From: an uncultured Aeriscardovia sp.
GTDB taxonomy: Bacteria; Actinomycetota; Actinomycetes; Actinomycetales; Bifidobacteriaceae
Length of the DNA: 64,000 nt
Direction of reading: 5' to 3'
Assembly: GCA_903789525.1 (NCBI GenBank)
Contig: CAIFER010000001.1
Span: 248,001 to 312,000, forward strand
Of this stretch, positions 5,394 through 40,485 are shown piece after piece. The notes beneath the pieces were generated by a model, which was given only the letters and a program-made list of their open reading frames with translations, was not told the DNA's origin and made no database searches. The translations under genes and the position numbers were made by a program. Position 1 is the stretch's first letter; every line of letters starts with the position of its first letter.

Positions 5394-5767
5394 GCCGATC
5401 ACCACGAAAAGTGCGCGTCGCTCACGTTTCTCGACGTGCTCACCCGATGATTTTCTTTTCGGTTGCGATCATCTTCCTGCTGGGTTCGATGCTCGGGTCA
5501 CTGTTCATGCGCACGGCGATGGTTCAGAATTCGTTTACTGTCTCCAAGCTCACTAACCAGATCGGCATGCTCAACCAGGATGTGCAAGATCGGCAAGACA
5601 AGCTCGAGCAGTTGAACGCGCAGCTCCCGGATCGGGCGCAAAAGTTGGGTATGAATACGACTGAGAGTCCGGGCAGCATCGACATCACTCAGAAGGTCGA
5701 TCCCAATCAAGTTCGTCAGGCAGCACAAGCAGCTCCACCAGTAAACAATCCACAGAACAAGAAGTAG
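5390..5767 (+). CDS. ftsL: FtsL-like septum protein
   Basis: This 125-residue bitopic protein sits in the FtsL slot between rsmH and ftsI. It has a basic cytoplasmic start, a transmembrane segment at about residues 20-40, then a heptad-like stretch (FTVSKLTNQIGMLNQDVQDRQDKLEQL) predicted to form the periplasmic coiled coil, and a Gln/Ala/Pro-rich tail. FtsL with FtsB and FtsQ activates the FtsW-FtsI septal synthase. Sequence conservation in this family is low, so the call rests on topology and gene order. It overlaps rsmH by ATGA, implying coupled translation. Confidence 0.85.
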   Translation: MSRSPRKVRVAHVSRRAHPMIFFSVAIIFLLGSMLGSLFMRTAMVQNSFTVSKLTNQIGMLNQDVQDRQDKLEQLNAQLPDRAQKLGMNTTESPGSIDITQKVDPNQVRQAAQAAPPVNNPQNKK

Positions 5768-5777
5768 TGAGGATGAA

Positions 5778-7727: not shown

Positions 7728-7752
7728 AAGACACAGAAAGCAGGAGGCGAAT

Positions 7753-8664
7753 ATGGCGTCAGATGATATGTCACCGCGCAGAATGACGATCGGCACGTTA
7801 GAGCGTCAATTTAATGCGCAGGCCTCTTCAGATGCGACTGCTGTAACGTTCACATCTGTCCCGACGCGCGTGGCAGAGGTTTCGCCGGGATCGCTGTTCA
7901 TTCCTGCAGGGAAAGAGGTCACCCTTCAGGCTGCTCAGCGTGCCGTGCTCGCCGGTGCCTACGCTGTAGGGCTGTCGACGGATGCCAAATCAGGGATTCC
8001 GGCTTCTGATGAAGATGGCGCGCACACAGTTGAGATTAACGATCACGTACTCGGTATTCCTGTCGTCTTCATTCCTTCGCTCGAGCAAAAAGTCGGCTCG
8101 ATTGCATCGGAAGTCGAAGGTGACCCCTCGCAGCAGACGGCTATTTTCGTCGCTTATGGGCCACAGTCACATGCGATTGCGCACCGATTGGCCCAGCTGC
8201 TACACATGCTGGGGAATCCAGTTGGTGTTCTTGTCGACCGCGGATCACAATCGGTGACCCGTCCGCTTGATCTGACATATCCGCTTGATGGCGCGCACGT
8301 TCAGCACGCATTGGCAATTATGGCTGAAGACGGAGCTTCTGCTGTCACCATCGCTGCCGATGATGCAACGCTTGATCCGTATGCTCTCGATGCGTGTGCA
8401 ATCGATGTTGTGTACGGCGAATCAGGTGCGATGGGATTGCACGGCGCACACTTCAGTTCGCAGACGCATCACGTTCCGGCGATCTCACAATCAGGCGATG
8501 CACACGAGCCGAATCACCATGCTCTGAGTGTGGGGTGGGACAAGATCGATACAGCTGGCAAAATCGCGATCGCTATGGCCACTGCTGCAGGAATCACATC
8601 CGACGCAATCCAGCAAGCTGCGCAAGTGTTTCACGAGTTTGACGGCGACAAAGGGACGAACTGA
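7753..8664 (+). CDS. MurE-like protein lacking the ATP-binding P-loop
   Basis: This 303-residue protein occupies the place where murE normally sits, between ftsI and murF. Its first part resembles a Mur-ligase N-terminal domain (TRVAEVSPGSLFIPAG, then AAQRAVLAGAYAVGL). The stretch that should be GTNGKTTT is instead VAYGPQSHAIAHRLAQLLHM, followed by a MurE-like LGNPVGVLVD, so the ATP site is gone. The C-terminal domain of true ligases is missing or replaced. A full-length MurE is encoded at 51,544-53,253. I infer a degenerate, non-catalytic paralogue, perhaps a scaffold or regulator in wall synthesis; its function is unknown. Confidence 0.7.
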   Translation: MASDDMSPRRMTIGTLERQFNAQASSDATAVTFTSVPTRVAEVSPGSLFIPAGKEVTLQAAQRAVLAGAYAVGLSTDAKSGIPASDEDGAHTVEINDHVLGIPVVFIPSLEQKVGSIASEVEGDPSQQTAIFVAYGPQSHAIAHRLAQLLHMLGNPVGVLVDRGSQSVTRPLDLTYPLDGAHVQHALAIMAEDGASAVTIAADDATLDPYALDACAIDVVYGESGAMGLHGAHFSSQTHHVPAISQSGDAHEPNHHALSVGWDKIDTAGKIAIAMATAAGITSDAIQQAAQVFHEFDGDKGTN

Positions 8665-8774
8665 TGAGGCACACACAATCCGCAGAATTTGCATGCGGAA
8701 GGCTTAAACTGAGATGGTTGCGTTCTCGAGTCGCTGTCGTGAAAGGCGTGAGGGGAGACGGTGAAGTGCAATGA
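8664..8774 (+). CDS. Possible 36-codon coupling ORF between the MurE-like gene and murF
   Basis: An ATG overlaps the stop of the MurE-like gene (TGATG) and opens a 36-residue frame, Arg-rich in its middle, whose TGA overlaps the murF ATG (ATGA). It exactly bridges the 106-nt gap. The peptide (starting MRHTQSAEF, ending GDGEVQ) matches nothing I recognise. Such a frame could carry ribosomes across the gap so that murF stays coupled. It may equally be chance. An internal 6-bp hairpin (TCCGCA/TGCGGA, about 8678-8698) lies inside it. Confidence 0.3.
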   Translation: MRHTQSAEFACGRLKLRWLRSRVAVVKGVRGDGEVQ

Positions 8775-10327
8775 TCACCACACGCATTGAAAAGGTCAAG
8801 GATGCTGTCGGTGGGACGTTTATCACTGGCCGGCAGGAAGTCGATATTTCGCATCTCTCGATTTCCTCAGTGAGCACTGATTCACGGCAGAAAACTCATA
8901 ATGGGCTCTTTGTCGCCATCAAGGGTGAGCGAGTCGACGGGCATGATTATTTGAATGCGGCTGCTCATAACGGATACGTCGCCGCACTCGTCGATCATGA
9001 AGTGCCGAATACGGATTTGTTGCAAATCGTGGTGGACGATACGGTTCGTGCATTAGGCAAATTGGCGCGTTATATCGTCGATCGCCGTCGTTCCGAGTTC
9101 TTCCACCCGTTCACGCTGATCGGTATCACCGGATCTGTTGGAAAGACGACCACGAAGGATATCACCCGTGCAATTCTCTCATCTGTTGCACCGACAGTGG
9201 CACCGGTCGGATCTTTCAATAACAATATTGGCTTGCCGCTCACGGCGCTCAAACTGACGAAGAAAACGCGCTATTTTGTGGCTGAGATGGGTGCGAGCCA
9301 AATCGGAGATATTCGTTACCTCGTTAGCATAGCGCCACCAGACGTGGGTACTGAGCTTCGCGTTGGAACGGCGCACGTCGGCATGTTCGGCTCTGTCGAA
9401 AACATTTTTAAGGCAAAGTCAGAGCTGGTTGAGGCACTGCCACCGTCTCGCAAAGGTGGAATCGCGCTCCTCAATTCAGATGACCCGAATGTCAGTCGTA
9501 TGGCGCAGGAGACACAGGCGAGCGTACGCTGGTTTGGTCTTGAACCGCATCCCGGTCGTCACCTCATGGTCACCGCGCAGCACATCACAACGGATCGGCT
9601 TGACCGCCCGAGTTTTGACCTCATTGTTGAGGGCGAGAACGTTGGACACGTCCACCTGCATATTTGCGGACGTCATCATGTCATCAACGCTGTTGCGGCG
9701 GCGAGTATCGCCCATGTGCTCCGTGTTGACTCGGATCGCATTGTGGAAGTGCTGAACTCTCACATGTCTCTTTCACCGCATCGTATGGCTGTGCGTGATA
9801 TCGCCGTCAGTGGCGTTCATCTGACGCTCTTGGATGATACGTTCAACGCCAATCCAGATTCGATGCGTGGGGGAATTCAGGGTTTGCGTGGTCTGAGTGG
9901 GCCAGAAGATCCTGAACATCTGACGGTAGCAAAGGATTCGCCAGAAGCTCAGCCGTATCGAGTTGCCGTGCTCGGGCCGATGTTGGAACTGGGTGACGAA
10001 TCTGTCAAACTGCATCGTCAGGTTGGTTCGCTCGTCGTCCAAAACGGCATTGATGCGCTGGTGGCCGTTGGTACGCCGTCATTGCCTCAGGCTGATCATC
10101 TCGCTGACGAATACATTACTGGTGCTCAGAATTCGGCATACCGATATAGTTCTGAGCGTCGTGGACCGTTGAACGTGCGGCGCGTGGCCAACACGGATGA
10201 AGCGTGGGCGCAGATTATGCACCTGGCCAGTAGGCATCCCAATACGATCGTCCTGCTCAAAGGCTCCCACGCATCAGGTTTGAGCACATTAGCCGATAGT
10301 CTTCTTTCACACGCACAAGGAGAGTGA
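8771..10327 (+). CDS. murF: MurF, UDP-MurNAc-tripeptide D-Ala-D-Ala ligase
   Basis: MurF adds the D-Ala-D-Ala dipeptide to the UDP-MurNAc tripeptide in the cytoplasm. The N-terminal substrate domain shows SSVSTDSRQ and GLFVAIKGERVDGHDYL. The P-loop is GITGSVGKTTTKD (about residues 118-130), followed by SFNNNIGLPLT and FVAEMGASQIGDI, both typical of MurF. The C-terminal domain has DDTFNANPDSMRGGI and RVAVLGPMLELGDES. Its 518 residues are a little longer than usual. It is followed by mraY after 1 nt, consistent with one operon. Confidence 0.96.
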   Translation: MITTRIEKVKDAVGGTFITGRQEVDISHLSISSVSTDSRQKTHNGLFVAIKGERVDGHDYLNAAAHNGYVAALVDHEVPNTDLLQIVVDDTVRALGKLARYIVDRRRSEFFHPFTLIGITGSVGKTTTKDITRAILSSVAPTVAPVGSFNNNIGLPLTALKLTKKTRYFVAEMGASQIGDIRYLVSIAPPDVGTELRVGTAHVGMFGSVENIFKAKSELVEALPPSRKGGIALLNSDDPNVSRMAQETQASVRWFGLEPHPGRHLMVTAQHITTDRLDRPSFDLIVEGENVGHVHLHICGRHHVINAVAAASIAHVLRVDSDRIVEVLNSHMSLSPHRMAVRDIAVSGVHLTLLDDTFNANPDSMRGGIQGLRGLSGPEDPEHLTVAKDSPEAQPYRVAVLGPMLELGDESVKLHRQVGSLVVQNGIDALVAVGTPSLPQADHLADEYITGAQNSAYRYSSERRGPLNVRRVANTDEAWAQIMHLASRHPNTIVLLKGSHASGLSTLADSLLSHAQGE

Positions 10328-10328
10328 C

Positions 10329-11432
10329 ATGAAGGCGCTAATTATTGCACTCGTCGTCTCAATCGTCTGCAGTTTCATTGTGACGCCGATCATCATTCGA
10401 TTTGTTCGTCGCCATCACTACGGCCAGTACATTCGCCAAGATGGGCCGAAGTCACATTTGCTGAAGCGCGGAACGCCAACGTTCGGAGGCGTGGGGATCA
10501 TCCTCTCAACGGTGCTCGGCTGGGTCGCTTCGGTTTTGTACCGGTACTTCAGCTATGGGTCACGTCCGTCGACGTCGGCTATTTTGACAGTTGGTTGCAT
10601 GGTTGCGTTCGGTGCTCTCGGTTTTGTGGACGACTTTCTGAAGGTGGCTCATAAACGTAATCTCGGTCTGAGTATTCATGCCAAGCTCATTGGGCAGGTG
10701 CTCATTGCCACCTTGTATGCGGTGTTGGCTGTCGTCCTGCCGACGGAATCGAATTTCCCGACTGCAAGTATGAAGATTTCGTGGATCGAAAGTCCGTCGC
10801 TCAATCTTGCCTTTGCAGGTAAAACGCTTGGCATCATTTTGTTCGTTGTATGGATGAATTTCTTGTTCGCTGCATGGACGAACGCCATCAACTTGACGGA
10901 CGGTTTGGACGGCTTGGCAACAGGGAGCTCCATGATCGCATTTATTGGTCTCGGGCTTATCGCCTTCTGGGAAAGCTACCATCTTGCTGGATCGCACGCA
11001 GATGGTTTGAAGTACACGATTTCGGATCCCATCGATCAGGCGATTATTGCTGTGTGCGTGGTCGGAGCGTGCTTCGGGTTCCTGTGGTTCAACGCGCATC
11101 CAGCTGAGATCTTCATGGGCGACACGGGGTCACTTGCGCTCGGCGGACTGTTTGCGGCAATGTCGGTGACGATGCATATCGAGTTGCTCGCAGTCGTGCT
11201 CGGTGGCCTCTTCGTCATCGAGACGATGTCCGATGTCATTCAAATCGGTGCATTCCATCTGTTCCATCGCCGCGTGTTCAAGATGGCTCCGCTGCACCAC
11301 CACTTCGAGCTGTCGGGGTGGCCTGAAGTCAAAGTAGTGACCCGCTTCTGGATGATTGAAGCAGCATTTACGATCGCAGGAGTCATCCTCTTCTATCTTG
11401 ATTGGTTGATTCGCTCTGGTCAGCTCGGATAA
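10329..11432 (+). CDS. mraY: MraY, phospho-MurNAc-pentapeptide transferase
   Basis: MraY transfers phospho-MurNAc-pentapeptide to undecaprenyl phosphate, making lipid I at the membrane. The 367-residue protein is polytopic (about ten hydrophobic segments) and has the active-site signatures GFVDDFLKVAHKRNLGLS, NAINLTDGLDGLATG and NAHPAEIFMGDTGSLALGG, plus the late HHHFELSGW. The length is normal. It begins right after murF behind an AAGGAG ribosome site. About 50 nt separate it from murD. Confidence 0.97.
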   Translation: MKALIIALVVSIVCSFIVTPIIIRFVRRHHYGQYIRQDGPKSHLLKRGTPTFGGVGIILSTVLGWVASVLYRYFSYGSRPSTSAILTVGCMVAFGALGFVDDFLKVAHKRNLGLSIHAKLIGQVLIATLYAVLAVVLPTESNFPTASMKISWIESPSLNLAFAGKTLGIILFVVWMNFLFAAWTNAINLTDGLDGLATGSSMIAFIGLGLIAFWESYHLAGSHADGLKYTISDPIDQAIIAVCVVGACFGFLWFNAHPAEIFMGDTGSLALGGLFAAMSVTMHIELLAVVLGGLFVIETMSDVIQIGAFHLFHRRVFKMAPLHHHFELSGWPEVKVVTRFWMIEAAFTIAGVILFYLDWLIRSGQLG

Positions 11433-11480
11433 ATCACTCGAGTAATCGAAACGACGATAGTGGTTTGAAGGAGAATAGGA

Positions 11481-12965
11481 ATGTCGACTTCACACGTCAT
11501 TGGCGGATACGATTTCGGCGATGCAACGGTTCTTGTCGCTGGATTAGGCATCTCAGGCGAGTCTGTGACTCATATTCTGGCTGCGCATGGCATCCCTTAT
11601 GTGAGCGTTGATCAGAAGAAGTCTGACGCCACCTATCACTCATTTGACCAGGTCGATTGGGCGAATATCTCCCTGGTTGTTACGTCTCCTGTCTTTAAGC
11701 CGACTTCACCGTTTTTGCTTGAGGCGGCGCGTCGTCATATTCCGGTATGGAGTGAAGTCGAATTCGCTTGGAGAACGCGCGTCTCACGTCCGCAGACGGG
11801 GAAGCCAGCCGGATGGATTGGCATCACCGGCACTGATGGGAAGACGACAACCACAGAGATGATTGCCGCGATGCTCAAAGCGCAAGGTCGTGTGTGCCCA
11901 GCGGTCGGTAACATTGGGTCACCTGTTTCTACAGCGGTGCAGGATCCCCACAACGACGGTTTTGTCGTTGAACTTTCTAGCTTTGCAATGCACTTTACGA
12001 ATTCGCTCCATTTGGACGTAGCCGTATGGACGAATATTTCGGCAGACCATCTCGATTGGCACGGCGGATTTGCCAACTACAGCCATGACAAATCGAAGGT
12101 GTTCACCAACGCGCAAAAGGCAATCGTGTACAACGCCGATGATCCTGTCGTTTCGAAGTATGCGCGAGCTGCTCAGCTTCCTTCCACGTGCTCTCAAGTC
12201 GGATTTACGCTGCATGAGCCAACTGATGGGCAGATCGGTGTCGCCGATGGGTGGATTGTCGATCGCAGCGCGCTGAGTAAAGATTCGCATGCAGAACGTG
12301 TGGTCGCTCTGTCAGACTTCTCGCAGCAGATGTGTGACGCCGACGGCACGGTGTATCCGCATTTGATCGCCGACGCGCTCGCAGCTATTGGGGCAGCTCG
12401 GGCTGTTCATGTTCCGGTCAGCGCTATTCGTTCGGCTTTGGCATCATTCACGCCGGATCCACATCGCATCCAGCTCGTTGCGCAGTACCGTCACCCACAC
12501 ACTTCCACTCAGTCTGCTCAGGCTTCTGACGCACAGCCAATCCGTTTCATCGATGATTCGAAGGCGACCGACGTCTTGGCGGCCCAGGCTTCGCTGTCGA
12601 GTTTCCCAGATCATCGTGTTATCTGGATTTGCGGTGGACTGGCAAAGGGCGCGACATTCACTGACTTGATTCGTCATAACAAGGTAAAGATGAAGGCAGC
12701 GATTGTCATTGGTGTTGATCAGACACCGTTCACGACAGCACTTGCTGCAGGAGGAGATGTGCCGTATACGTGCATCACGCCAGGCGGCTCCGGTCAGCAT
12801 GTGATGGATCAGGCAATTGCAGCTGCAATGCGGTACGCTCAGCCAGGCGATATCGTCTTACTCGCGCCAGCAGCGGCTTCGATGGATCAGTTCCGCAATT
12901 ACCCGGATCGCGGAGATAAGTTTGCTGCCGCGGCTCGTGCGTGGATCGCTGCGCAGAAAGATTGA
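11481..12965 (+). CDS. murD: MurD, UDP-MurNAc-L-alanine:D-glutamate ligase
   Basis: MurD adds D-Glu to UDP-MurNAc-L-Ala. A Rossmann-like start (VLVAGLGISGESV) precedes the P-loop GITGTDGKTTTTEM (Lys121), then VGNIGSPV, VVELSSFAM and NISADHLDWHG. The C-terminal domain carries FTPDPHRIQLV, FIDDSKATDVLAA and APAAASMDQFRNYPDRGDKF. At 494 residues it is within the upper range of actinobacterial MurD. An AAGGAG ribosome site sits just before the ATG. ftsW follows after 3 nt. Confidence 0.96.
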   Translation: MSTSHVIGGYDFGDATVLVAGLGISGESVTHILAAHGIPYVSVDQKKSDATYHSFDQVDWANISLVVTSPVFKPTSPFLLEAARRHIPVWSEVEFAWRTRVSRPQTGKPAGWIGITGTDGKTTTTEMIAAMLKAQGRVCPAVGNIGSPVSTAVQDPHNDGFVVELSSFAMHFTNSLHLDVAVWTNISADHLDWHGGFANYSHDKSKVFTNAQKAIVYNADDPVVSKYARAAQLPSTCSQVGFTLHEPTDGQIGVADGWIVDRSALSKDSHAERVVALSDFSQQMCDADGTVYPHLIADALAAIGAARAVHVPVSAIRSALASFTPDPHRIQLVAQYRHPHTSTQSAQASDAQPIRFIDDSKATDVLAAQASLSSFPDHRVIWICGGLAKGATFTDLIRHNKVKMKAAIVIGVDQTPFTTALAAGGDVPYTCITPGGSGQHVMDQAIAAAMRYAQPGDIVLLAPAAASMDQFRNYPDRGDKFAAAARAWIAAQKD

Positions 12966-28964: not shown

Positions 28965-29747
28965 ATGTCCGTTTTATTGCTCAGACTTGCTGGGCCACTT
29001 CAATCATGGGGATCGTCTTCACGATTCACACGACGTGATACTCGTCCAGAGCCGACGAAAAGCGCGGTCATCGGGCTGCTTGCCAGTGCACAGGGTCGGA
29101 CACGTGAGGATTCAATTGAAGATTTGCTCAAACTGAAATTCGGAGTTCGCACAGATCAACGAGGTGGTATTCTCCGAGATTTTCAGACCGAGCATGCAAT
29201 GCCGTGGGCTCGCAAGTCTCTCGATATGCCGCTTTCAGAACGCTACTATCTTTCTGATGCGAAATTTCTTGCAGCCATCCAAGGAGACGATCAGCTGATT
29301 TCATCGCTAGCGCATGCGATCAAGTATCCAACTTGGCCTGCCTTCTTGGGCAGGAGATCGTGTCCGCCAGAATTTCCGATCTTTTTCGGAATTTCACAGC
29401 ACGCGACAGTCATCGAGGCGCTCAAACATGAACCGTGGATTGCTGCCAGGTGGTACCGTCACCGCGTTGGTTCCGGTGGGTCTCTGTCGGTTGCCTGCGA
29501 CGCAGATCAGTCTGATGCTTCTGTAGGTGGAATCACCGAGACCGTTGCTGATCAGCCAACAGCGCATAGTTTCTCAGTAAAGTACCGCAGTTACGAGCTC
29601 AGGCCGGTTCGACATTTCACGGTGCCGATTGCAGAGCTTGACGGCCAGGAGCATCAGGTAGATCGTGATCCGTGGGGCGAAGACCGGACTGATAACTCAC
29701 ATCAGCCGCCGATCGCACTTGATGGGCATGATCCCATGGGATTCTAA
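28965..29747 (+). CDS. casD: Cas5e (CasD), Cascade subunit capping the crRNA 5' handle
   Basis: Cas5e binds the 5' handle of crRNA. The family opening is clear: LLLRLAGPLQSWGSSSRFTRRDT, then PTKSAVIGLLASAQGR. Further motifs are FGVRTDQRGGILRDFQT, YLSDAKFLAAI and FLGRRSCPPEFP, all typical of actinobacterial Cas5e. The length is 260 residues. It starts 6 nt after the cas7e stop, and its end is followed by a strong ribosome site for cas6e. A Cas5e catalytic function is not expected in I-E systems because Cas6e does the processing. Confidence 0.95.
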   Translation: MSVLLLRLAGPLQSWGSSSRFTRRDTRPEPTKSAVIGLLASAQGRTREDSIEDLLKLKFGVRTDQRGGILRDFQTEHAMPWARKSLDMPLSERYYLSDAKFLAAIQGDDQLISSLAHAIKYPTWPAFLGRRSCPPEFPIFFGISQHATVIEALKHEPWIAARWYRHRVGSGGSLSVACDADQSDASVGGITETVADQPTAHSFSVKYRSYELRPVRHFTVPIAELDGQEHQVDRDPWGEDRTDNSHQPPIALDGHDPMGF

Positions 29748-29757
29748 GGAGGGGAGT

Positions 29758-30570
29758 ATGTATATTTCACGGGTGCCATTGAATATGGCACGCTATAGCA
29801 CGCGAAGGCTCGTGTCTTCGCCGTACCGGCTTCATGCTGCCGTGGAGGCTTCTTTCCCTCCTGATTCTCCGCGAACGGATGACAGGGGAGGAAGAATTCT
29901 GTGGCGCTTGGATCAGTCAGGTCAGGGAGAGTCTCTGTGGCTTTATGTTGTGAGTCCTGAGCGTCCTGACTTCACCGCCATCGAAGAACAAGCTGGATGG
30001 CCGATGAATAGAAGTTGGCAAACGCGGGATTATTCGCCACTTCTTCAGCGCATTGCTGTTGGTCAGAAATGGCAATTCAGGCTTCGTGCCAATCCAGTCA
30101 GAAAGGTGTCTGTTGATCGCGGACGAAATCCTCGTCCTTCGCTGATCGGCAAAAATGAGGGTGAAGTTACAGTCGCTTATCAGATGAAATGGCTGATAAC
30201 TCGTGCTATGCGCAACGGATTTTCCTTGCTGGAGAATGCGATGACTCCTGGGGTTCCCGATTGCCTCATCAGTCAAAGGCGTCTCGAGCATTTCCGTCGC
30301 AAGGGAGCGACTGTCACTCTCCGTACCTGTGAGTTCGATGGAACGTTGGAAGTGACTGATTCTGAAGCTTTCCGTTCTTTGCTCGTTTCTGGCATTGGAC
30401 GAGCGCGTGGATTTGGATGCGGACTTTTAACGGTTGCACCAATTCCTTCGCAGTCACAGTCTGAAGCAAGATCGCTCGATGAGAGGACTGCTCTTGCTTC
30501 TCTGAACTTGCCGGAATCTGATCAAAGTCAGGTTCGCTCTAGTTCTGATTTACAAAATCATAGCCGTTGA
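29758..30570 (+). CDS. casE: Cas6e (CasE), crRNA endoribonuclease
   Basis: Cas6e cuts the repeat hairpin of pre-crRNA and stays bound to the 3' handle. The 270-residue protein starts MYISRVPLNMARYSTRR; His26 in YRLHAAVEASFP is the expected catalytic histidine (His20 in E. coli). The C-terminal Gly-rich loop GIGRARGFGCGLLTVAP is intact. ATG 29758 is preceded by AAGGAGGGGAG. A longer in-frame extension back to 29665 overlaps cas5e and is rejected. cas1 follows after about 20 nt. Confidence 0.95.
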   Translation: MYISRVPLNMARYSTRRLVSSPYRLHAAVEASFPPDSPRTDDRGGRILWRLDQSGQGESLWLYVVSPERPDFTAIEEQAGWPMNRSWQTRDYSPLLQRIAVGQKWQFRLRANPVRKVSVDRGRNPRPSLIGKNEGEVTVAYQMKWLITRAMRNGFSLLENAMTPGVPDCLISQRRLEHFRRKGATVTLRTCEFDGTLEVTDSEAFRSLLVSGIGRARGFGCGLLTVAPIPSQSQSEARSLDERTALASLNLPESDQSQVRSSSDLQNHSR

Positions 30571-30589
30571 GAAATAGAGCAAATGTAAT

Positions 30590-31615
30590 ATGAAACGGCC
30601 AAATTCAGTCCCCGGTACACCACCTCCACAAGTAAGTGAGTTGGTTCGTGCCGAGGACCGTCTTTCTTTCGTTTACTTCGAGCATTGCGTTGTCGATCGT
30701 GAGGATAACTCCGTTACCATTACGACAAAAGAAGGGAAGATCGCTCTTCCGGCAGCTGCCCTGAGTGTTCTCCTGCTTGGACCAGGTACAAGTGTCACGC
30801 ATCAAGCTATGCAGGTGATGGGTGAAAACGGTGCAATGATGATCTGGGTCGGAGAGCGTGGTGTGCGCATGTATTCTTTTGGCAGTCCGCTTACTCATTC
30901 GTCAGCGATGATTGAACAACAGGCAAGACTTGTCAGCAATGAACGCAAACGTCTTGCAGTTGCACGAAAAATGTATGAGATGCGATTTCCCGGCGAAGAT
31001 TTTAGCGGGATGACGATGCAACAACTACGGGGACGAGAAGGAGCTCGTGTTCGGAGTGTTTATCGCAAGTGGTCTCGCGAAACAGGTGTTGCATGGGATA
31101 AACGGACTTACAATCATGAGGATTTTGACGATGCAACACAAATTAACCAAGCTCTTTCGGCTGCAAATACGTGTCTTTATGGTATTTGTCATGCAGTGAT
31201 CTTGGCTCTTGGTTGCTCACCAGCTCTCGGATTCATACATGTTGGCCATGAAAGATCCTTCGTTTTTGATGTGGCAGATCTGTATAAAGCGGAGATATCT
31301 ATTCCAGTTGCTTTCCAAGTTACTGCTAAGCATCCAGATGATATAGGATCGGCTGTCCGTCACGCAATGCGCGATAAACTGTATGACCTTTCCATCATGA
31401 AACGTGTCGCTGCTGATATTCGCATGCTTTTTGGAATGAAAGATGAGAGTACATCGCAGAAGACGATCAATGGAGATGCCGGTGGGGAAGACGGCTCTGA
31501 CATCGCAGACTCTGATGTCGCAGAATCCGATTCAGCAGGGCATGGGGAAGATGATTTTGACACAAATCTTCTCTGGGATCCGCATGGAGACGTTCCGGGA
31601 GGTCGGGATTATTGA
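30590..31615 (+). CDS. cas1: Cas1, spacer integrase (type I-E)
   Basis: Cas1 with Cas2 captures and integrates new spacers. The catalytic set Glu150 (LRGREGARVRSVY), His217 (GFIHVGHERSFVFD) and Asp230 (DVADLYK) has the same spacing, 67 and 13 residues, as Glu141, His208 and Asp221 of E. coli Cas1. The 341-residue protein has an unusual acidic, low-complexity stretch near residues 285-325 before the typical C-terminal LLWDPHGDVPGGRDY. The start follows GAGCAAATGTAAT, a weak ribosome site. Integrity of the active site implies that the system can still adapt. Confidence 0.96.
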   Translation: MKRPNSVPGTPPPQVSELVRAEDRLSFVYFEHCVVDREDNSVTITTKEGKIALPAAALSVLLLGPGTSVTHQAMQVMGENGAMMIWVGERGVRMYSFGSPLTHSSAMIEQQARLVSNERKRLAVARKMYEMRFPGEDFSGMTMQQLRGREGARVRSVYRKWSRETGVAWDKRTYNHEDFDDATQINQALSAANTCLYGICHAVILALGCSPALGFIHVGHERSFVFDVADLYKAEISIPVAFQVTAKHPDDIGSAVRHAMRDKLYDLSIMKRVAADIRMLFGMKDESTSQKTINGDAGGEDGSDIADSDVAESDSAGHGEDDFDTNLLWDPHGDVPGGRDY

Positions 31616-31683
31616 TTACTCGTTTTAGAAATGTCAGGTAAAGAAGTTTCAGTGAATCGTTGCTTTTCAAGGAGGAGATCGGG

Positions 31684-32043
31684 ATGATTGTTGTCTCCAT
31701 GACTGCTTGTCCTATCGGGCTCCGCGGGGATCTTTCTCGATGGCTTTTTGAGATAGCACCAGGAGTTTTTGTGGGGAATGTCAGCGCTCGTGTACGAGAC
31801 AATCTGTGGGAGAGGATCACAGGATTGTGCAAGGATGGACGAGCGACGATGGTCTATTCAGCACGAAATGAGCAACATCTTGCTTTTCGAACTTTCCGAT
31901 CTGATTGGAAGACGATCGATTGTGATGGACTTGAACTGGTTCTCAAACCTGCAGGAACAGAGAATACGACCATTTCGGGTTCGCTCCGATCAGGGTGGAG
32001 CACAGCAAGTCATTGGAGACGAGCCAGGCGCTTTCGGCACTGA
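31684..32043 (+). CDS. cas2: Cas2, adaptation nuclease-fold partner of Cas1 (type I-E)
   Basis: Cas2e bridges two Cas1 dimers in the integration complex. The 119-residue protein begins MIVVSMTACPIGLRGDLSRW and continues GVFVGNVSARVRDNLWERI, the usual Cas2e pattern, with a 20-25-residue C-terminal tail. The ATG at 31684 follows AAGGAGGAGATCGGG. A longer frame from 31660 covers the ribosome site and is rejected. It is the last cas gene; the array leader starts downstream. Confidence 0.94.
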   Translation: MIVVSMTACPIGLRGDLSRWLFEIAPGVFVGNVSARVRDNLWERITGLCKDGRATMVYSARNEQHLAFRTFRSDWKTIDCDGLELVLKPAGTENTTISGSLRSGWSTASHWRRARRFRH

Positions 32044-32268: not shown

Positions 32269-35200
32269 GTGTTCCCCGCATAGGCGGGGATGATCCTCTT
32301 ATCCGCATTAACCGAGCTTGCAGCCAACTGTGTTCCCCGCATAGGCGGGGATGATCCGCCGGCGTGATCATGTGGAGCGTGCACCTCGACGTGTTCCCCG
32401 CATAGGCGGGGATGATCCGAAAGGGGATGTCACGCTTCCGGACGGACTCCGGTGTTCCCCGCATAGGCGGGGATGATCCCTAGGTATTGATCGGATAGTG
32501 TTCCTCCGGTTTGTGTTCCCCGCATAGGCGGGGATGATCCGGTGAAGGCGCTCTACCCGCAGTGGGACGGCTCGTGTTCCCCGCATAGGCGGGGATGATC
32601 CCCGTTGGGGGGTTAGCACGCCTGAGACCGGCTAGTGTTCCCCGCATAGGCGGGGATGATCCCGTTATACTGCCAGTTGCCATACGGCTGCACGCGTGTT
32701 CCCCGCATAGGCGGGGATGATCCCTGACGCGCATGGCACGCCTCAGGCGGCTGTCAGTGTTCCCCGCATAGGCGGGGATGATCCGGCTCCCAGACTGTAT
32801 ATCCCACTGCCCGTCCAGTGTTCCCCGCATAGGCGGGGATGATCCTAGTAATCGAGGGCTAGTTTCCTTTTGGCGTCCGTGTTCCCCGCATAGGCGGGGA
32901 TGATCCGCGGGCTGACGTTTTTAGCCGCGTCCTTAGAGCGTGTTCCCCGCATAGGCGGGGATGATCCGAGCACGACACGCCGATACTTTCCAACGATTTC
33001 GTGTTCCCCGCATAGGCGGGGATGATCCGACGATCGTGCTCACCACCTCCGACGGCACTAGGTGTTCCCCGCATAGGCGGGGATGATCCGATCGTGTCCC
33101 ATTTCGTTGATTTTCCAAGCAAGTGTTCCCCGCATAGGCGGGGATGATCCGGGATCGAGCGGAAGAATCCGGCGATCTTGTCAGTGTTCCCCGCATAGGC
33201 GGGGATGATCCTAATGAGATCATTGGTCTACGAGCCGGGGATTGGTGTTCCCCGCATAGGCGGGGATGATCCCTGTGACGATCATCACGCCTCTCACTAC
33301 CGTGAGTGTTCCCCGCATAGGCGGGGATGATCCCATTTCAAAGCGCCGAAAACTGAGAACGACACTGTGTTCCCCGCATAGGCGGGGATGATCCTAAGGA
33401 CAAGAACGGCAGGGTCACGCAGTTTACGTGTTCCCCGCATAGGCGGGGATGATCCTCGTTTGCGGGTTGATCGCGCGATTTTGTGTTGGTGTTCCCCGCA
33501 TAGGCGGGGATGATCCGTCCAATTGGTATTCGGACGGGACGAACCTCAAGTGTTCCCCGCATAGGCGGGGATGATCCTAAGTTTGGCTACCTGAGTGACC
33601 GACAAATAGTGTGTTCCCCGCATAGGCGGGGATGATCCGTTTAATCAGATCGCGTCGAACAATCACTGGACGTGTTCCCCGCATAGGCGGGGATGATCCC
33701 TGCTCGTATATTCCAACGCGGTATTCGACGACGTGTTCCCCGCATAGGCGGGGATGATCCGATCCTCCAGATCATGCTGGTATCCAGCCTGCTGTGTTCC
33801 CCGCATAGGCGGGGATGATCCCAAGGAAATCATCCCCGTCGGCTACGCGCAAATGTGTTCCCCGCATAGGCGGGGATGATCCGGACCTTGGCAAGAACAT
33901 CGGCAAGGCCTTCCAGTGTTCCCCGCATAGGCGGGGATGATCCCACCATACTTTGCTACAGCCTCTTCGAGGTCATGTGTTCCCCGCATAGGCGGGGATG
34001 ATCCGCGTTCGCTCAAGATCGTCGTGGAGCACCACGCGTGTTCCCCGCATAGGCGGGGATGATCCGACATCGCCGCTTGAGGCGTGTATTTTAGCCGCGT
34101 GTTCCCCGCATAGGCGGGGATGATCCCATGCTGATCGGCGATGACCGGCACGCATACTAGTGTTCCCCGCATAGGCGGGGATGATCCGGTGACGTGAAAT
34201 GACTAACGAAGAAATCAATGGTGTTCCCCGCATAGGCGGGGATGATCCGCCGTTCAGGCTGAGGATTTCATCAGCGATTTCGTGTTCCCCGCATAGGCGG
34301 GGATGATCCGAAAAAAAGGAAGCAACAAAATGATCAACCGCAAGTGTTCCCCGCATAGGCGGGGATGATCCGGCGCTCGAAGCCAAGAAGGCTGAGCTTG
34401 AAAAGTGTTCCCCGCATAGGCGGGGATGATCCGTTTTATTCGCTAATAATGTCGAGTCCGATGAGGTGTTCCCCGCATAGGCGGGGATGATCCCAGGATC
34501 GACACGCGAAAAGTGCAGAAGTTACAGTGTTCCCCGCATAGGCGGGGATGATCCGCACGCGATCACCACGCAAGGCGTTGCAGTGTTGTGTTCCCCGCAT
34601 AGGCGGGGATGATCCTCACCATCGCGGCCGGCTGAGCCGAACGGCTGGGTGTTCCCCGCATAGGCGGGGATGATCCCTCGACGAGCTGTTCTCGATCGCC
34701 GCCGCACTCGTGTTCCCCGCATAGGCGGGGATGATCCGTCTTGAATACGGTATGACCGGTGGATTATGATGTGTTCCCCGCATAGGCGGGGATGATCCTG
34801 CCGGCGGCGATCGAAGTTGATGCGCCGTCAAGTGTTCCCCGCATAGGCGGGGATGATCCTAAGAAGCGTTCGATTTACTTTAACGCGCGTGAGTGTTCCC
34901 CGCATAGGCGGGGATGATCCCTCAACACACTCTGCCCGATCGTCTAAAAGGCAGTGTTCCCCGCATAGGCGGGGATGATCCTACTCAACCCAACAGTCGT
35001 GGTGAGCGCGACCCGTGTTCCCCGCATAGGCGGGGATGATCCTCTGCTGGGCGAAGTGGGCGATCTGCTCGCGCGGTGTTCCCCGCATAGGCGGGGATGA
35101 TCCGCCCGTGATATGCCTGATACACTCGGTCAGCGAGTGTTCCCCGCATAGGCGGGGATGATCCCCGTGCGACCGACATAAGTGCTATTCGAAGCGGGTG

Positions 35201-38200
35201 TTCCCCGCATAGGCGGGGATGATCCCTCAAACACAGAGGCAAAATCACTGTCGTAAACGTGTTCCCCGCATAGGCGGGGATGATCCCCTCTGCGACCCAT
35301 GCATCTGCTCAGAATTCGAGTGTTCCCCGCATAGGCGGGGATGATCCGAAGAGCCCCACGCCCGCCGGAAGCCGGGATGGGTGTTCCCCGCATAGGCGGG
35401 GATGATCCCCACAGACCAGCAGAGCACGCAACAGCAGCCTGGTGTTCCCCGCATAGGCGGGGATGATCCCGTCAGACCGGCGTGCTCAACGCCCCCCCCC
35501 TACGTGTTCCCCGCATAGGCGGGGATGATCCCAAATTCGGATGGCATCCTGCCGGTAAAGTTTGGTGTTCCCCGCATAGGCGGGGATGATCCCACTCACC
35601 GCTGACCCAACCACAGGATCTACGGGTGTTCCCCGCATAGGCGGGGATGATCCCAATCCCGTTGGCGCGAGATGCTAGGTCAGCGGGTGTTCCCCGCATA
35701 GGCGGGGATGATCCTGTGGCGGCGTCCGCGATGTTGGCGAGCAGCTGGTGTTCCCCGCATAGGCGGGGATGATCCTGGTCATCACACAGACCGCCGGCGC
35801 AGGAAAGCGTGTTCCCCGCATAGGCGGGGATGATCCTCCACAGTAAGTTCCTCAACCGTCCGGGCGAACGTGTTCCCCGCATAGGCGGGGATGATCCTCT
35901 GAGACAAGAGATCGGCAAAAACGCTCATGTGTGTTCCTCGCATAGGCGGGGATGATCCCCTGCCGTTTCCTCACAGCCCTTATCCTCGATGGTGTTCCCC
36001 GCATAGGCGGGGATGATCCGGGTTATGGTCAGCTTGCAGAGGCGGCCGGTAAGTGTTCCCCGCATAGGCGGGGATGATCCCGATCATGGAGTGGCAACGA
36101 TCGCGTCCCGGCCGTGTTCCCCGCATAGGCGGGGATGATCCCACAAAGGCCAAAGTCTGCCATTTACGTTTAAAGTGTTCCCCGCATAGGCGGGGATGAT
36201 CCCGACGTCAGTTGGAGTGATGCGGGGATTATTCGGTGTTCCCCGCATAGGCGGGGATGATCCCGGTTGATTGACATGTACGCGCAAAACCAGCAGGTGT
36301 TCCCCGCATAGGCGGGGATGATCCGCAATTTCGCGAATTTCATTTGCGTTTCGAGCAGTGTTCCCCGCATAGGCGGGGATGATCCTCCGTCACACCATCA
36401 CGGCTTGCACCCTCTCAGGTGTTCCCCGCATAGGCGGGGATGATCCCGGGAGAACAGCTTGCCGTGCGCCATGTAGTCAGTGTTCCCCGCATAGGCGGGG
36501 ATGATCCGGCTGATGAGCTGACTAGCGAGTATAAGAATGCGTGTTCCCCGCATAGGCGGGGATGATCCCCTGACCAACGATCGCAGCCACACCCTCGAAG
36601 GGTGTTCCCCGCATAGGCGGGGATGATCCTGCTGAATTGCGAGTGTTGCGTGGTACCCCGGGGTGTTCCCTGCATAGGCGGGGATGATCCGCGCTCACGA
36701 AGACGCACAGTCACGCGATCATTGTGTTCCCCGCATAGGCGGGGATGATCCTCCTGATCGTCCTGTTCATTTTCGCGTGTGCGAGTGTTCCCCGCATAGG
36801 CGGGGATGATCCCTTGTAGGGCTTGCGCGTCGGTGAGACTGTCAGGTGTTCCCCGCATAGGCGGGGATGATCCCCGAACGCCAGCATATGACCGACTTCA
36901 TCCTTGGTGTTCCCCGCATAGGCGGGGATGATCCCGCCTTCGGATATTCGACCTGCAAAGCCAGGCGGTGTTCCCCGCATAGGCGGGGATGATCCTCATG
37001 ACGGGGTGCGAAATGGAGCGAAAGTGCAGTGTTCCCCGCATAGGCGGGGATGATCCGACCGCGCGTCTACGGAAGGCACGCGATCACACGTGTTCCCCGC
37101 ATAGGCGGGGATGATCCTGCCTTTGAGAGACATATCGTCTCCTTTCAGAAGTGTTCCCCGCATAGGCGGGGATGATCCCGACTCACAGGGAAATCTAACA
37201 AACGCTTATGAGTGTTCCCCGCATAGGCGGGGATGATCCCGAGAACAGTGATTTCCGCCGCGAAAAATATTGGTGTTCCCCGCATAGGCGGGGATGATCC
37301 TCCACAGTGCGTTGAGGGCGCGCACGAACTTGGGTGTTCCCCGCATAGGCGGGGATGATCCGCAATCTAGCGGCGTATAAGATGCCGCCTCCTGGTGTTC
37401 CCCGCATAGGCGGGGATGATCCGTTGGCAACCAAAGTAACCCACCTCATCCTCGAGTGTTCCCCGCATAGGCGGGGATGATCCGATTGCGGCCGGAGCGG
37501 TTGACGCTGACAAGATGTGTTCCCCGCATAGGCGGGGATGATCCTCCCACGAGGTTATGTTGGCATGCTAATCGCCCGTGTTCCCCGCATAGGCGGGGAT
37601 GATCCGTCAAACTCGGGCGTGTCGCACAGAGAAGCGCGGTGTTCCCCGCATAGGCGGGGATGATCCGTGCTCAAGCAAAATCCAAGCAAACGCTAAGCAG
37701 TGTTCCCCGCATAGGCGGGGATGATCCGCAGTTTTCGGTGGGTCGACGGTTACGGCATGTGTGTTCCCCGCATAGGCGGGGATGATCCCATGGTCAGCAC
37801 AGGAGTCAGCATCCAAATCCCGTGTTCCCCGCATAGGCGGGGATGATCCGGGCGACGACGTTGACAGCATCGACGCTGATGTGTGTTCCCCGCATAGGCG
37901 GGGATGATCCCCTACCAGATCAACACGCTTGATTTCCGCAGAGGTGTTCCCCGCATAGGCGGGGATGATCCCGTCCGCCCGCCGTACGAGTCGACTTTTA
38001 TCGTGTGTTCCCCGCATAGGCGGGGATGATCCGCGAAAGGAATCAAAATGATTAACCGCAATGAGGTGTTCCCCGCATAGGCGGGGATGATCCCATCCAC
38101 GGAATTGCTCACACGCTCATCGCAACGTGTTCCCCGCATAGGCGGGGATGATCCCCGGAGCGGACTTGGTGTTATCGTCGTCAGAGTGTGTTCCCCGCAT

Positions 38201-38689
38201 AGGCGGGGATGATCCGCTCAACGGCAGAAACCAGTTCCGACTCGACGAGTGTTCCCCGCATAGGCGGGGATGATCCTCGGCGTCGCACCGGCACGTGCGC
38301 CCTTGGCGGGTGTTCCCCGCATAGGCGGGGATGATCCGCGCGTGTACGAGGCGTGGAACGTTTCGAACCAGTGTTCCCCGCACGGGCGGGGATGATCCCT
38401 TGTACCACGCGCACTGTGACTGTCAGGTCGTGTGTTCCCCGCACAGGCGGGGATGATCCCTGTTGCGCCGCGACAGCTGCTGCACACCATCCGTGTTCCC
38501 CGCACAGGCGGGGATGATCCGATTTGTGCCTCATCAAACACTTCGAGGCCGACGTGTTCCCCGCACAGGCGGGGATGATCCCAATGTTCTGTTGCGCTGG
38601 AACATTCTGGCACAGGCGGGGATGATCCTATCCATCACCTCACAGGCTTGCTGCAGCCAGTGTGTTCCCCGCACAAGCGGGGATGATCC
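32269..38689 (+). CRISPR. Type I-E CRISPR array, about 106 repeat units
   Basis: The 28-bp repeat reads GTGTTCCCCGCATAGG then CGGGGATGATCC, with a CCCCGC/GCGGGG hairpin as expected for Cas6e. Spacers are 33 nt (two are 34), giving a 61-nt period. From start coordinates there are 104 regular units to 38554, a 5'-damaged unit ending at 38628, and a terminal unit at 38662-38689. Units 1-100 have CATAGG in the loop (single variants at 35931 and 36663); units 101-106 have CACGGG, CACAGG or CACAAG. Degeneration at the right end and the leader at the left fix transcription as rightward. No duplicate spacers were noticed in a reading of about half of them. Confidence 0.98.
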
Positions 38690-38764
38690 GGGATTCCGGA
38701 CGAGCCAAGAATCCCCAAAATAAAAAACTTTAGGCGTCAATTATCGGCATCTCCGGCACCGACA

Positions 38765-39073
38765 TCAGGCAGCTGCTTTTACAGAGCGCTTCTTCGCGTC
38801 AGCGATCGCTCTCTTAACTGCGATCATATCGTCTCCGTCATCGTCCCAACCTTCGCTCTTGCCGACGTCATAGGCAAGTTGAGCGTCCACGAGCTTGACG
38901 GGGAGATCATAGCGGTTCATTGCACAGACACCTTTAACGACGGCCAAGAAGATTTCACCTGTGTCGGCAAATAACTGGACTTCTTCAGCATCCTCCTGAT
39001 GCCCAGTTTCCTGGAGGATATCAACACAATCATCAACTGCGATATCGAAAACGTCACGCGTTTGTTGTGTCAT
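38765..39073 (-). CDS. Small acidic protein, candidate immunity protein for the adjacent toxin-like ORF
   Basis: This 102-residue acidic protein (many Asp and Glu, with EGWDDDGDDM near the C-terminus) resembles no family I can name. Its ATG overlaps the stop of the upstream ORF by 4 nt (ATGA), and an AAGGAGG ribosome site lies inside that ORF, so the two are made together. Acidic proteins encoded directly after nuclease toxin domains are usually their immunity proteins; here that is inferred from position and charge. It starts about 75 nt beyond the last CRISPR repeat. Confidence 0.6.
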   Translation of the reverse strand: MTQQTRDVFDIAVDDCVDILQETGHQEDAEEVQLFADTGEIFLAVVKGVCAMNRYDLPVKLVDAQLAYDVGKSEGWDDDGDDMIAVKRAIADAKKRSVKAAA

Positions 39074-39546
39074 TCCATCCTCCTTCGAACATTAGGTGTG
39101 ATCGTTGTGATACGGATTTTACCTTTCCGCATCCCTGTCGAAACGTACAAGTGGAATCCATTATATTCCCCGAAATAGGTCCCATTTTTTGTTGGCTTGA
39201 CTGTTTCGAGGACGTGCTTCGCTGCTGCGATGATGTCGTTTTTGTCCCAGACGACGGGAAATTCGCTTCGGTCGGCGATCCAGCCGTAGCCGCTCATGTG
39301 ACCGCCCGTGTAACGGATTCCAGGCTTGCCACCGTGCCCTTGACCCCGGATTTTCTTTTCAGAGCCGTAGAGAATGTAATTCAGTTCCTTCACTCGCAAA
39401 ACGGGTAGTCGTTCGGCCAGTCGTTGGGAACCGTGGTTGGTGCCTCGGGCGGCATCTTTCACCTCCGATCGGATGAGGCGATGTATCTCTGTGCGAGGAA
39501 AGACCTGTAATTCTGCCAGCCGCCGAGTCGCAGGTCGGTGTTCCAC
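39070..39546 (-). CDS. Polymorphic-toxin C-terminal domain fragment, EndoU-like
   Basis: The frame covers up to 158 codons. The C-terminal 100 residues (YILYGSEKK, GGKPGIRYTGGHMSGYG, EFPVVWDKNDIIAAAKHV, then KIRITTITPNVRR) resemble bacterial EndoU-type RNase domains that end secreted polymorphic toxins. No signal peptide or delivery domain is present. The frame's only upstream start is a GTG (39544-39546) inside an orphan CRISPR repeat, so the real start is unclear and the gene is probably a truncated, orphan cassette. It is followed with a 4-nt overlap by a small acidic candidate immunity gene. Family assignment needs a profile search. Confidence 0.55.
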   Translation of the reverse strand: MEHRPATRRLAELQVFPRTEIHRLIRSEVKDAARGTNHGSQRLAERLPVLRVKELNYILYGSEKKIRGQGHGGKPGIRYTGGHMSGYGWIADRSEFPVVWDKNDIIAAAKHVLETVKPTKNGTYFGEYNGFHLYVSTGMRKGKIRITTITPNVRRRME

Positions 39547-39565
39547 GCATAGGCGGGGATGATCT
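39538..39565 (+). repeat. Orphan CRISPR repeat 850 bp beyond the array
   Basis: The 28 nt match the array repeat at 26 positions; C8 is A and the last C is T. It has the CATAGG loop of the main array, not the CACAGG loop of the nearest units. No second repeat lies 61 nt to either side. It sits exactly between the two toxin-like frames. It is a relic of recombination or of a longer ancestral array. Confidence 0.92.
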
Positions 39566-39946
39566 GCGAATCAACGGTTCGTCTGGATCCCGAAGGACGA
39601 GAAGACATTGAAACCGACAAACGACTTCTACTGGGGTAACAAGAATCTTGAAGTCGAGATGAAAGCTGTTGCCACGCCAAGATTCGGGTACATTTTCCGC
39701 AGTATTAGTAGGGCTGTGAAGAGCGCACAAAAGCATGGAGTGCCAAAAGACTCGTTTGTTGTCGACTTGACCGGCGTATCGAAGAGACAGGTTGGTAAGC
39801 TAGCCTACCAACTTTCTGGTTACAATCGTGATCATCCTGATGCGACGATCAAGCATCTGTTCATCGGCTCAAACGGTGGAATCGAAAGAGCAGGGCAAGA
39901 AGAAAAAACAATCCCTAAAGGAATGTACGAAATCCACCTGATATAA
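39563..39946 (+). pseudogene. CdiA-C-like nuclease toxin domain fragment
   Basis: An open frame runs from the end of the orphan repeat to the TAA at 39944-39946; the first usable start is a TTG at 39608. The predicted sequence (RFVWIPKDEK, DFYWGNKNLEVEMKAV, then IFRSISRAVKSAQ, SFVVDLTG) has the look of PD-(D/E)xK-type C-terminal domains of contact-dependent toxins, with E-x-E-M-K as a candidate active-site strand. Coding-like sequence begins directly after the repeat with no start or ribosome site, so the N-terminus has been lost. No immunity gene follows. I treat it as a remnant. Confidence 0.5.
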
Positions 39947-39948
39947 AA

Positions 39949-40024
39949 AGAACAGCGAGATCGGTGGTTCCGCGCTTTATCGTGGCTGTTATTTCAAGCC
40001 GCACGGGGTCGCTCTCGCTGTTCT
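39949..40024 (+). terminator. Long-loop inverted repeat, possible bidirectional terminator
   Basis: AGAACAGCGAGA (39949-39960) is perfectly complementary to TCTCGCTGTTCT (40013-40024). An A run precedes and TCTTTT follows. The 52-nt loop is GC-rich and may fold further. It starts right after the toxin fragment's stop. A terminator is the simplest reading; a structured RNA is possible. Confidence 0.5.
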
Positions 40025-40046
40025 CTTTTCATACTATCACATTTTT

Positions 40047-40115
40047 GGCGGTCTGCCGGAGTGGTCGAACGGGCCCGACTGTGACTACGCGTTCCTGCGC
40101 AGGGATGATCCCGCC
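40047..40115 (+). other. tRNA-Tyr-like 5' half joined to a CRISPR-repeat-like remnant
   Basis: From 40047 the sequence GGCGGTCTGCCGGAGTGG, then GAACGGGCCCGACTGTGA, resembles the 5' half of a bacterial tRNA-Tyr (acceptor strand, D arm, CTGTxA anticodon loop), but the anticodon 3' stem does not pair. At 40089-40111 it continues GCGTTCCTGCGCAGGGATGATCC, which resembles the array repeat with an internal deletion. GGCGG at 40047 and CCGCC at 40111 can close a stem around the 69-nt whole. A TACTAT -10-like hexamer lies 10 nt upstream (40032-40037). No complete tRNA can be drawn. Confidence 0.4.
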
Positions 40116-40485
40116 TGACAATTTGGAGACCAGCTGCCACGGGAACTTTTATCCGAACACGTGTTAAGTCGTTCTTTCACTTATGTGCATAACCCTGAGG
40201 CAAATGACATATGAGAGAGTTGAGTGATGAGTAATCGTTGGACAATTCGGCTTCGCGAGGCTAACTATTTGCTACGAGGGCGCTGGCAATACGGTTAGCT
40301 GACACGATTATCTGAGAGCTGCCAAGACCGGCTATAGGCCCGGCTCAGTAATGACCTATGAGTTTAACCTATGACCTTTGCCTATAGATCATCCGATCCC
40401 CGACAGCTCTTTTGACTTTGAAATCACTCGAGAACTGTGAACCACTCGATACTTGTCATGGGCTGCATAACAGTAGATAACAGAG
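40116..40485. other. Intergenic stretch without a supported gene
   Basis: No frame with a ribosome site or family resemblance was found here. A small direct repeat (CCTATGA, CCTATGA, CCTATAGA) lies around 40349-40390 near the xylB 3' end. The sequence is probably decayed DNA between the CRISPR debris and xylB. Confidence 0.5.

Follow-up and report, generated by a model that had tools for sequence, protein, structure and literature searches.

A tRNA-like and CRISPR-repeat-like hybrid in an uncultured Aeriscardovia sp. as the probable seam of a phage fragment in a type I-E array

Introduction

How does a stretch of 69 nucleotides (nt) come to begin like a transfer RNA (tRNA) and to end like a repeat of a CRISPR (clustered regularly interspaced short palindromic repeats) array? 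The hybrid in question occupies positions 40047-40115 of a 64,000-nt window, the whole stretch of DNA analysed here, from an uncultured Aeriscardovia sp., and it lies at the trailer end of a type I-E array. An earlier note on this DNA had described a left half resembling the 5´ half of a tRNA-Tyr and a right half resembling a shortened repeat, and had offered as readings a decayed tRNA, a decayed repeat, a small RNA or a relative of the CreTA modules. The sequence features that it described all sit where it placed them. Here we find that the hybrid is not an RNA gene but a junction, at which a phage fragment has its right border. The 523 nt that end in it, 39566-40088, are likely a phage fragment bounded by repeats at the trailer (old) end of the array, of which the hybrid forms the seam.

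Results

The left half is a phage tRNA-Tyr 5´ half

To trace the left half of the hybrid (40047-40082, plus strand) we searched 189 genomes of the same family. Together with 12 nt of its 5´ flank (40035-40082) it is 92% identical over 48 nt to a prophage tRNA-Tyr of another genus, found in genome G172 (E 2e-13), and further matches occur at 85-86% identity in G170 and G171 and at 83-92% over shorter stretches in G023, G173 and G067. All of these matches end at 40082 or at most one base from it, while the matched genes are complete tRNAs, tRNA-Tyr(GTA) in all cases but one, a tRNA-Cys; the window copy therefore breaks off within the anticodon loop. The host tRNA-Tyr is a poor match and the tRNA half is therefore of phage origin. 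The host tRNA-Ser is a poor match too, and the idea that the hybrid is a duplicated piece of an intact host tRNA was rejected on these grounds.

The TACTAT upstream of the hybrid is present as described but is not the hybrid's own -10-like box: it belongs, with TATCACATTTTT, to the 5´ flank of the phage tRNA, where most relatives carry a TATCAC-type or similar motif. The tRNA does not resume after the break. When the sequence following it was compared with a tRNA-Tyr 3´ half, 87-575 of 2000 shuffles did equally well, leaving an intact or decayed tRNA across both halves unsupported. Moreover, ARAGORN found no tRNA in the window, where no family reached the Rfam cut-off, and a permissive Rfam scan of 600 nt gave no tRNA. 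Neither ARAGORN nor the Rfam tRNA model finds a full cloverleaf at the hybrid, the 3´ half being missing. Thus, "decayed tRNA" was a correct description of the left half only, which derives from a phage tRNA-Tyr severed at the anticodon loop.

The right half is a degenerate type I-E repeat

The right half (40089-40111, plus strand) is a degenerate CRISPR repeat that is 5 nt shorter than normal. The 60 nt that follow the tRNA break matched the repeat of the host itself better than did 1999 of 2000 shuffles, a single shuffle being as good; compared with the TGCGC-loop repeat of related species (GTTCC-----TGCGCAGGGATGATCC) they were equalled by none of 2000. In the alignment of 40091-40111 to the related-species repeat GTGTTCCCCGCATGCGCGGGGATGATCC there is one 5-nt gap and one mismatch. 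The match to the array repeat is significant and on the same strand, identifying the right half as a degenerate copy with a 5-nt deletion, and the "decayed repeat" reading applies to this half alone. Between the two halves lie six bases, GACTAC (40083-40088), that we assign to neither side.

Could the right half be a coincidence next to an ordinary prophage remnant that happens to lie beside the array? The motif GGGATGATCC, present in 106 copies in the array and in one copy outside it, at 40102-40111, has a chance expectation of 0.15 per window when taken alone, and the array clearly begins to decay at its trailer end, both of which would suit such a remnant. However, 6 nt lie between the phage break and the start of the match, the match contains the GTTCC and TGCGC common to the repeats of the family (0 of 2000 shuffles), and the left border of the phage DNA is also a repeat. 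We consider a coincidental match improbable.

The hybrid as a whole has no properties of an RNA gene

The 69 nt show no excess folding (fold z = 0.25; 111 of 200 shuffles did as well or better), so the GGCGG/CCGCC pairing that had been proposed to close the element is not special and a stable RNA at 40047-40115 is not supported. With no match to Rfam or ARAGORN either, the small-RNA reading finds no support. The hybrid as a whole is absent from every other genome among the 189 searched, and the 69 nt themselves are most likely without function. Two short ortholog matches, of 40076-40095 to pepP and of approximately 40107-40129 to a mutY-like gene, are probably due to chance.

These data also bear on the parallel drawn to CreTA modules (PMC8501985, PMC9458426), in which a tRNA-directed toxin RNA is paired with a repeat-like RNA that guides Cascade. 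As in those modules, a degenerate repeat stands outside the regular array and has a link to a tRNA, here near a type I cas locus, and CreA repeats are characteristically degenerate (PMC9458426). By contrast, no toxin RNA is apparent and the window has no guide-target match: the 33 nt that follow the repeat have no seed-plus-partial match to any promoter in the window, and no partial target there beyond a chance seed. What resembles a tRNA is a leftover, a phage tRNA that has been cut short. Combined with the lack of excess folding and the absence of the whole hybrid from the other genomes, this leaves a CreTA-like or other ectopic-repeat RNA module scarcely credible. Overall, the two decay readings of the earlier note survive, each for its own half, its RNA readings do not, and it had overlooked the phage fragment between two repeats.

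Fragment B is a piece of a phage MuF module between two repeats

The tRNA half is the end of a longer piece of phage DNA. In relatives, a phage module runs in the order MuF-toxin gene, conserved hairpin RNA, tRNA-Tyr, scaffold and capsid. The gene before the tRNA has a VG15/MuF capsid-associated start and a variable toxin-like end, full-length relatives carrying both, and the scaffold and capsid genes mostly lie downstream of the tRNA. MuF proteins are polymorphic toxins of temperate phages, among which an EndoU-type MuF of Bifidobacterium bifidum has been named (PMC5576092). The names "toxin" and "immunity" used here are putative, as they are based on position and homology, and on that study for MuF generally. 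The order toxin C-terminal domain, hairpin, tRNA-Tyr is found in prophages L084 and L086-L090, and in L092 with a variant hairpin. The tRNA in the gap between the MuF and scaffold genes of one prophage (L060, in G067) is tRNA-Cys rather than tRNA-Tyr.

Positions 39566-40082 of the window correspond to this module, starting inside the toxin domain. By protein and DNA homology, the 523-nt fragment B (39566-40088, plus strand) consists of the toxin C-terminal domain, the hairpin RNA and the tRNA-Tyr 5´ half. The toxin domain (39566-39946, plus strand) is N-terminally cut: homologues match its protein (P0001) from residue 2, with E values to 3e-21, and these relatives extend upstream with MHEIVFLERF..LGNH, whereas the homology in the window starts no more than ~6 nt from the repeat. 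An ND...E-x-K signature with invariant N, D, E and K suggests, as we read the alignment, a PD-(D/E)XK-like domain; there was no Pfam match, and a PDB profile search gave no relative. No VG15 is encoded in the window's genome, and the window toxin, being the C-terminal part only, is not a complete MuF toxin.

In relatives, a hairpin with a conserved UUAUUUCA loop sits between toxin and tRNA. Its copy in fragment B (39951-40021, plus strand) is in the syntenic place and scores 17.5 bits (E 0.13) with our covariance model R1, and 39945-40030 folds with z -4.5. The covariance model, built from seven copies, matches in 14 genomes. The pairs covary, with 59 double-change cells versus 18.9 in shuffles (0 of 500) and far lower values in slid controls, in an alignment that was fitted to the covariance model. 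No Rfam family covers the hairpin in the loci scanned. In Bifidobacteriaceae this RNA also occurs elsewhere than after MuF genes (L171-L187, position 1501-1565).

On its left, fragment B abuts a lone CRISPR repeat (39538-39565, plus strand, 26/28); on its right, DNA homology to relatives extends to 40082. Foreign DNA thus stands between two repeats, flush to within ~6 nt at the left border and 6 nt at the right. Phages do carry repeat mimics, including type I-E ones (PMC10651486), which raises the possibility that the repeat at the seam is a phage-borne solitary repeat unit, an RNA anti-CRISPR (Racr), left behind by a prophage decaying beside the array. No prophage copy of the module, among relatives of lower identity, contains a convincing repeat, and the window repeats are in line with the array and in the same orientation. 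Such an origin is very unlikely.

Fragment B is preceded by a second fragment at the trailer end of the array

The genes for maturation and adaptation, cas6e, cas1e and cas2e (29665-32043, plus strand; PADLOC E values 6.5e-51, 5e-130 and 6e-42 for the products of the open reading frames (ORFs)), stand at the leader end of the array. The array itself (32269-38689, plus strand), defined by repeat search and spacing, has regular 33-nt spacers, and its repeats decay toward the trailer end. Near that end, at 38582-38661, a repeat without its left half (20/28 at 38601) disrupts the 61-nt period.

The last regular repeat is followed by 848 nt of fragment A, the lone repeat at 39538-39565, the 523 nt of fragment B and, finally, the degenerate repeat. 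Fragment A (38690-39537) is read from the minus strand, antisense to the repeats, and is flanked by repeats matching 26/28 and 26/28. It contains a MuF toxin C-terminal part that is EndoU-like (Pfam E 0.014, below the cut-off) and has homologues in other genomes (best E 5e-20); translated homology stops no more than 4 nt short of the right repeat. An intact ORF of 102 amino acids (aa; 38765-39073, minus strand) directly follows the toxin end, which is also the order in MuF loci; this putative immunity gene gave no family match.

Gene-sized phage inserts recur in bifidobacterial arrays

To ask whether such fragments occur elsewhere, we located the array regions of type I-E genomes via Cse1 and listed the distances between repeats. 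Inserts of several hundred nt bounded by repeats were found in G003, G125, G131, G145 and G147. The G125 insert, flush with its repeats to 1-3 nt, comprises the C-terminal 24 residues of an EndoU MuF toxin and an intact 85-aa gene, and the G147 insert contains a related gene; both genes are homologous to the gene after the EndoU MuF in prophage L058. In G031 a MuF pseudogene begins ~10 nt past the last repeat. Degenerate repeats in G051 enclose a related toxin end together with its hairpin, in the opposite orientation.

When the family was searched with the immunity-type protein, further in-array copies were found in G030 (Bifidobacterium canis GSD1FS) and G075 (B. pseudolongum subsp. globosum 2093B); no repeats lie close to the copies that adjoin MuF genes, and a control of 65 kb of shuffled sequence contained no match to a repeat. 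The B. canis array has 1630 nt of contiguous phage DNA between two identical, intact repeats, with homology from base 1 to base 1627. This insert, flush to 1-3 nt, contains part of a capsid gene, a scaffold gene, the immunity-type gene and a toxin end. In B. pseudolongum 2093B, inserts of 376, 486, 1041 and 2171 nt stand between repeats matching 27-28/28, and the two largest each carry an HExxH-type toxin end, related to one another, followed by a small ORF. Repeat-bounded phage inserts in several Bifidobacterium arrays span 345-2171 nt and repeatedly include MuF immunity-type genes.

In the 2093B array with these inserts (L188, reverse strand 5461-12146; inserts of 376, 486, 1460, 1041 and 2171 nt) phage DNA exceeds spacers. 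A second, small array of the same strain (L166, G075:C5) has inserts of 851 and 328 nt, and its immunity-type gene extends into a repeat, which supplies the stop codon. A gene of ~95 aa without known family lies at the trailer end of four arrays (L123, 9746-11600; L126, 2335-4092, reverse strand; L117 and L121, just after the array), and it is tandemly repeated with CRISPR repeats in G131 and G145.

In the arrays found via Cse1, immunity-type genes occur in 3 of ~9 inserts, compared to the 1-2% expected for random pieces of a phage of an assumed 38 kb (p about 1e-4 to 6e-4). This enrichment suggests that such genes are retained because they are protective.

Insert ends favor the adaptation machinery over two-sided recombination

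The ends of the inserts provide clues to their route of entry. At the left border of the B. canis insert, the phage homologues read AAG or GAG, the protospacer adjacent motif (PAM) position, and for the left end of the 1041-nt B. pseudolongum insert the homologous stretch within the 2171-nt insert reads AAA|G (AAG). The 2171-nt insert itself has no reliable homologue at its left end, making its PAM unreadable. The first base, the one derived from the PAM, is G in 5 of the 6 inserts of B. canis and B. pseudolongum to which this count was limited, inserts of decayed arrays being left out, just as it is G in 16 of 17 ordinary spacers there (p = 0.005). None of the five inserts that lie between good repeats in these species has an AAG 33 nt before its right end.

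This last feature is relevant to homologous recombination between spacers and phage, in which one or two crossovers would copy phage DNA into the array and the flush ends would be those of two older spacers. Recombination between phages and CRISPR loci occurs in staphylococci. Spacer-phage recombination would predict a flush left end with a PAM equally well, and prophage integration into CRISPR loci has been reported (Varble 2021, cited in PMC10651486). A further expectation under recombination is a PAM placed 33 nt ahead of the right end, where 0 of 5 inserts have AAG. A single crossover would import a whole phage, not a contiguous 1.6-kb piece, and among 1148 spacers from 19 arrays, none matches prophage loci at both ends of an insert. 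The PAM at the left end together with the lack of AAG 33 nt before the right end therefore favors uptake by the adaptation machinery over two-sided recombination, and we regard recombination, the main rival, as the less likely route, although the 1460-nt insert does not conform to this picture. Uptake by Cas1-Cas2 as the route of the phage fragments into the arrays has, in our judgement, close to but slightly below an even chance.

Discussion

These data answer the question posed by the hybrid: a phage module was cut within its tRNA-Tyr, and the cut end lies next to a CRISPR repeat. Several points weigh against regarding 39566-40088 as an oversized spacer and against the wider proposal that follows. 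The right-hand repeat is decayed by its 5-nt deletion, and 40083-40088 fit neither side. Searches of phages, plasmids and viral contigs gave nothing near-identical to the fragments, and the exact break points and PAM of fragment B are for this reason unreadable. The PAM evidence comes from two other arrays only, and the 1460-nt insert begins without a PAM. The B. canis and B. pseudolongum arrays are draft assemblies that were found via the immunity gene, which introduces an ascertainment bias. Finally, selection for immunity is not supported by fragment B, which may be a passive leftover because it encodes no immunity protein.

With these points in mind, we propose that the phage fragments would be oversized spacers inserted by Cas1-Cas2, the PAM end being chosen normally and the far end not being trimmed to 33 nt. 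Fragments with an immunity gene against a phage MuF toxin may then have been retained by selection, as they would protect the host from that toxin. Bifidobacterial arrays would thus be banks of gene-sized spacers, giving protection by RNA guides as well as by captured antidote proteins. We advance this full scheme tentatively, and rate it as possible rather than probable.

Comparison with known systems underscores what would be distinctive. Like ordinary type I-E spacers, the inserts stand flush between repeats in the register of the array, and the clear cases start at a PAM with the usual first base; unlike them, they measure 345-2171 nt rather than 33 nt and contain whole phage genes and, in one case, half a tRNA. 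Whole prophages have reportedly been joined to CRISPR loci at an att site in Streptococcus pyogenes, whereas the bifidobacterial inserts are sub-kilobase to 2-kb pieces from the middle of a phage genome. As far as the citation of the S. pyogenes work describes it, phage DNA between CRISPR repeats is common to both (Varble 2021, cited in PMC10651486). The captured pieces correspond to the MuF toxins of temperate phages (PMC5576092) in consisting of the C-termini of MuF toxins and of the small genes that follow, but the window toxin lacks the MuF part, is cut at a CRISPR repeat and resides in an array, not in a prophage. The open-access literature, which leaves subscription papers uncovered and priority not established, yielded no description of gene-sized spacers or of arrays that contain toxin-immunity genes.

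Cas1-Cas2 and trimming nucleases are considered to determine how long a spacer is. If the proposed scheme is true, phage pieces that reach 10 to 65 times the usual length, and whose PAM end is normal where it can be read, would show that in nature this ruler can fail at one end, and would open such failure to testing. Programs that search for arrays on the expectation of short spacers may stop at such inserts and miss them. If the captured immunity genes are expressed, arrays would be a place where hosts gather protein antidotes to phage-delivered toxins.
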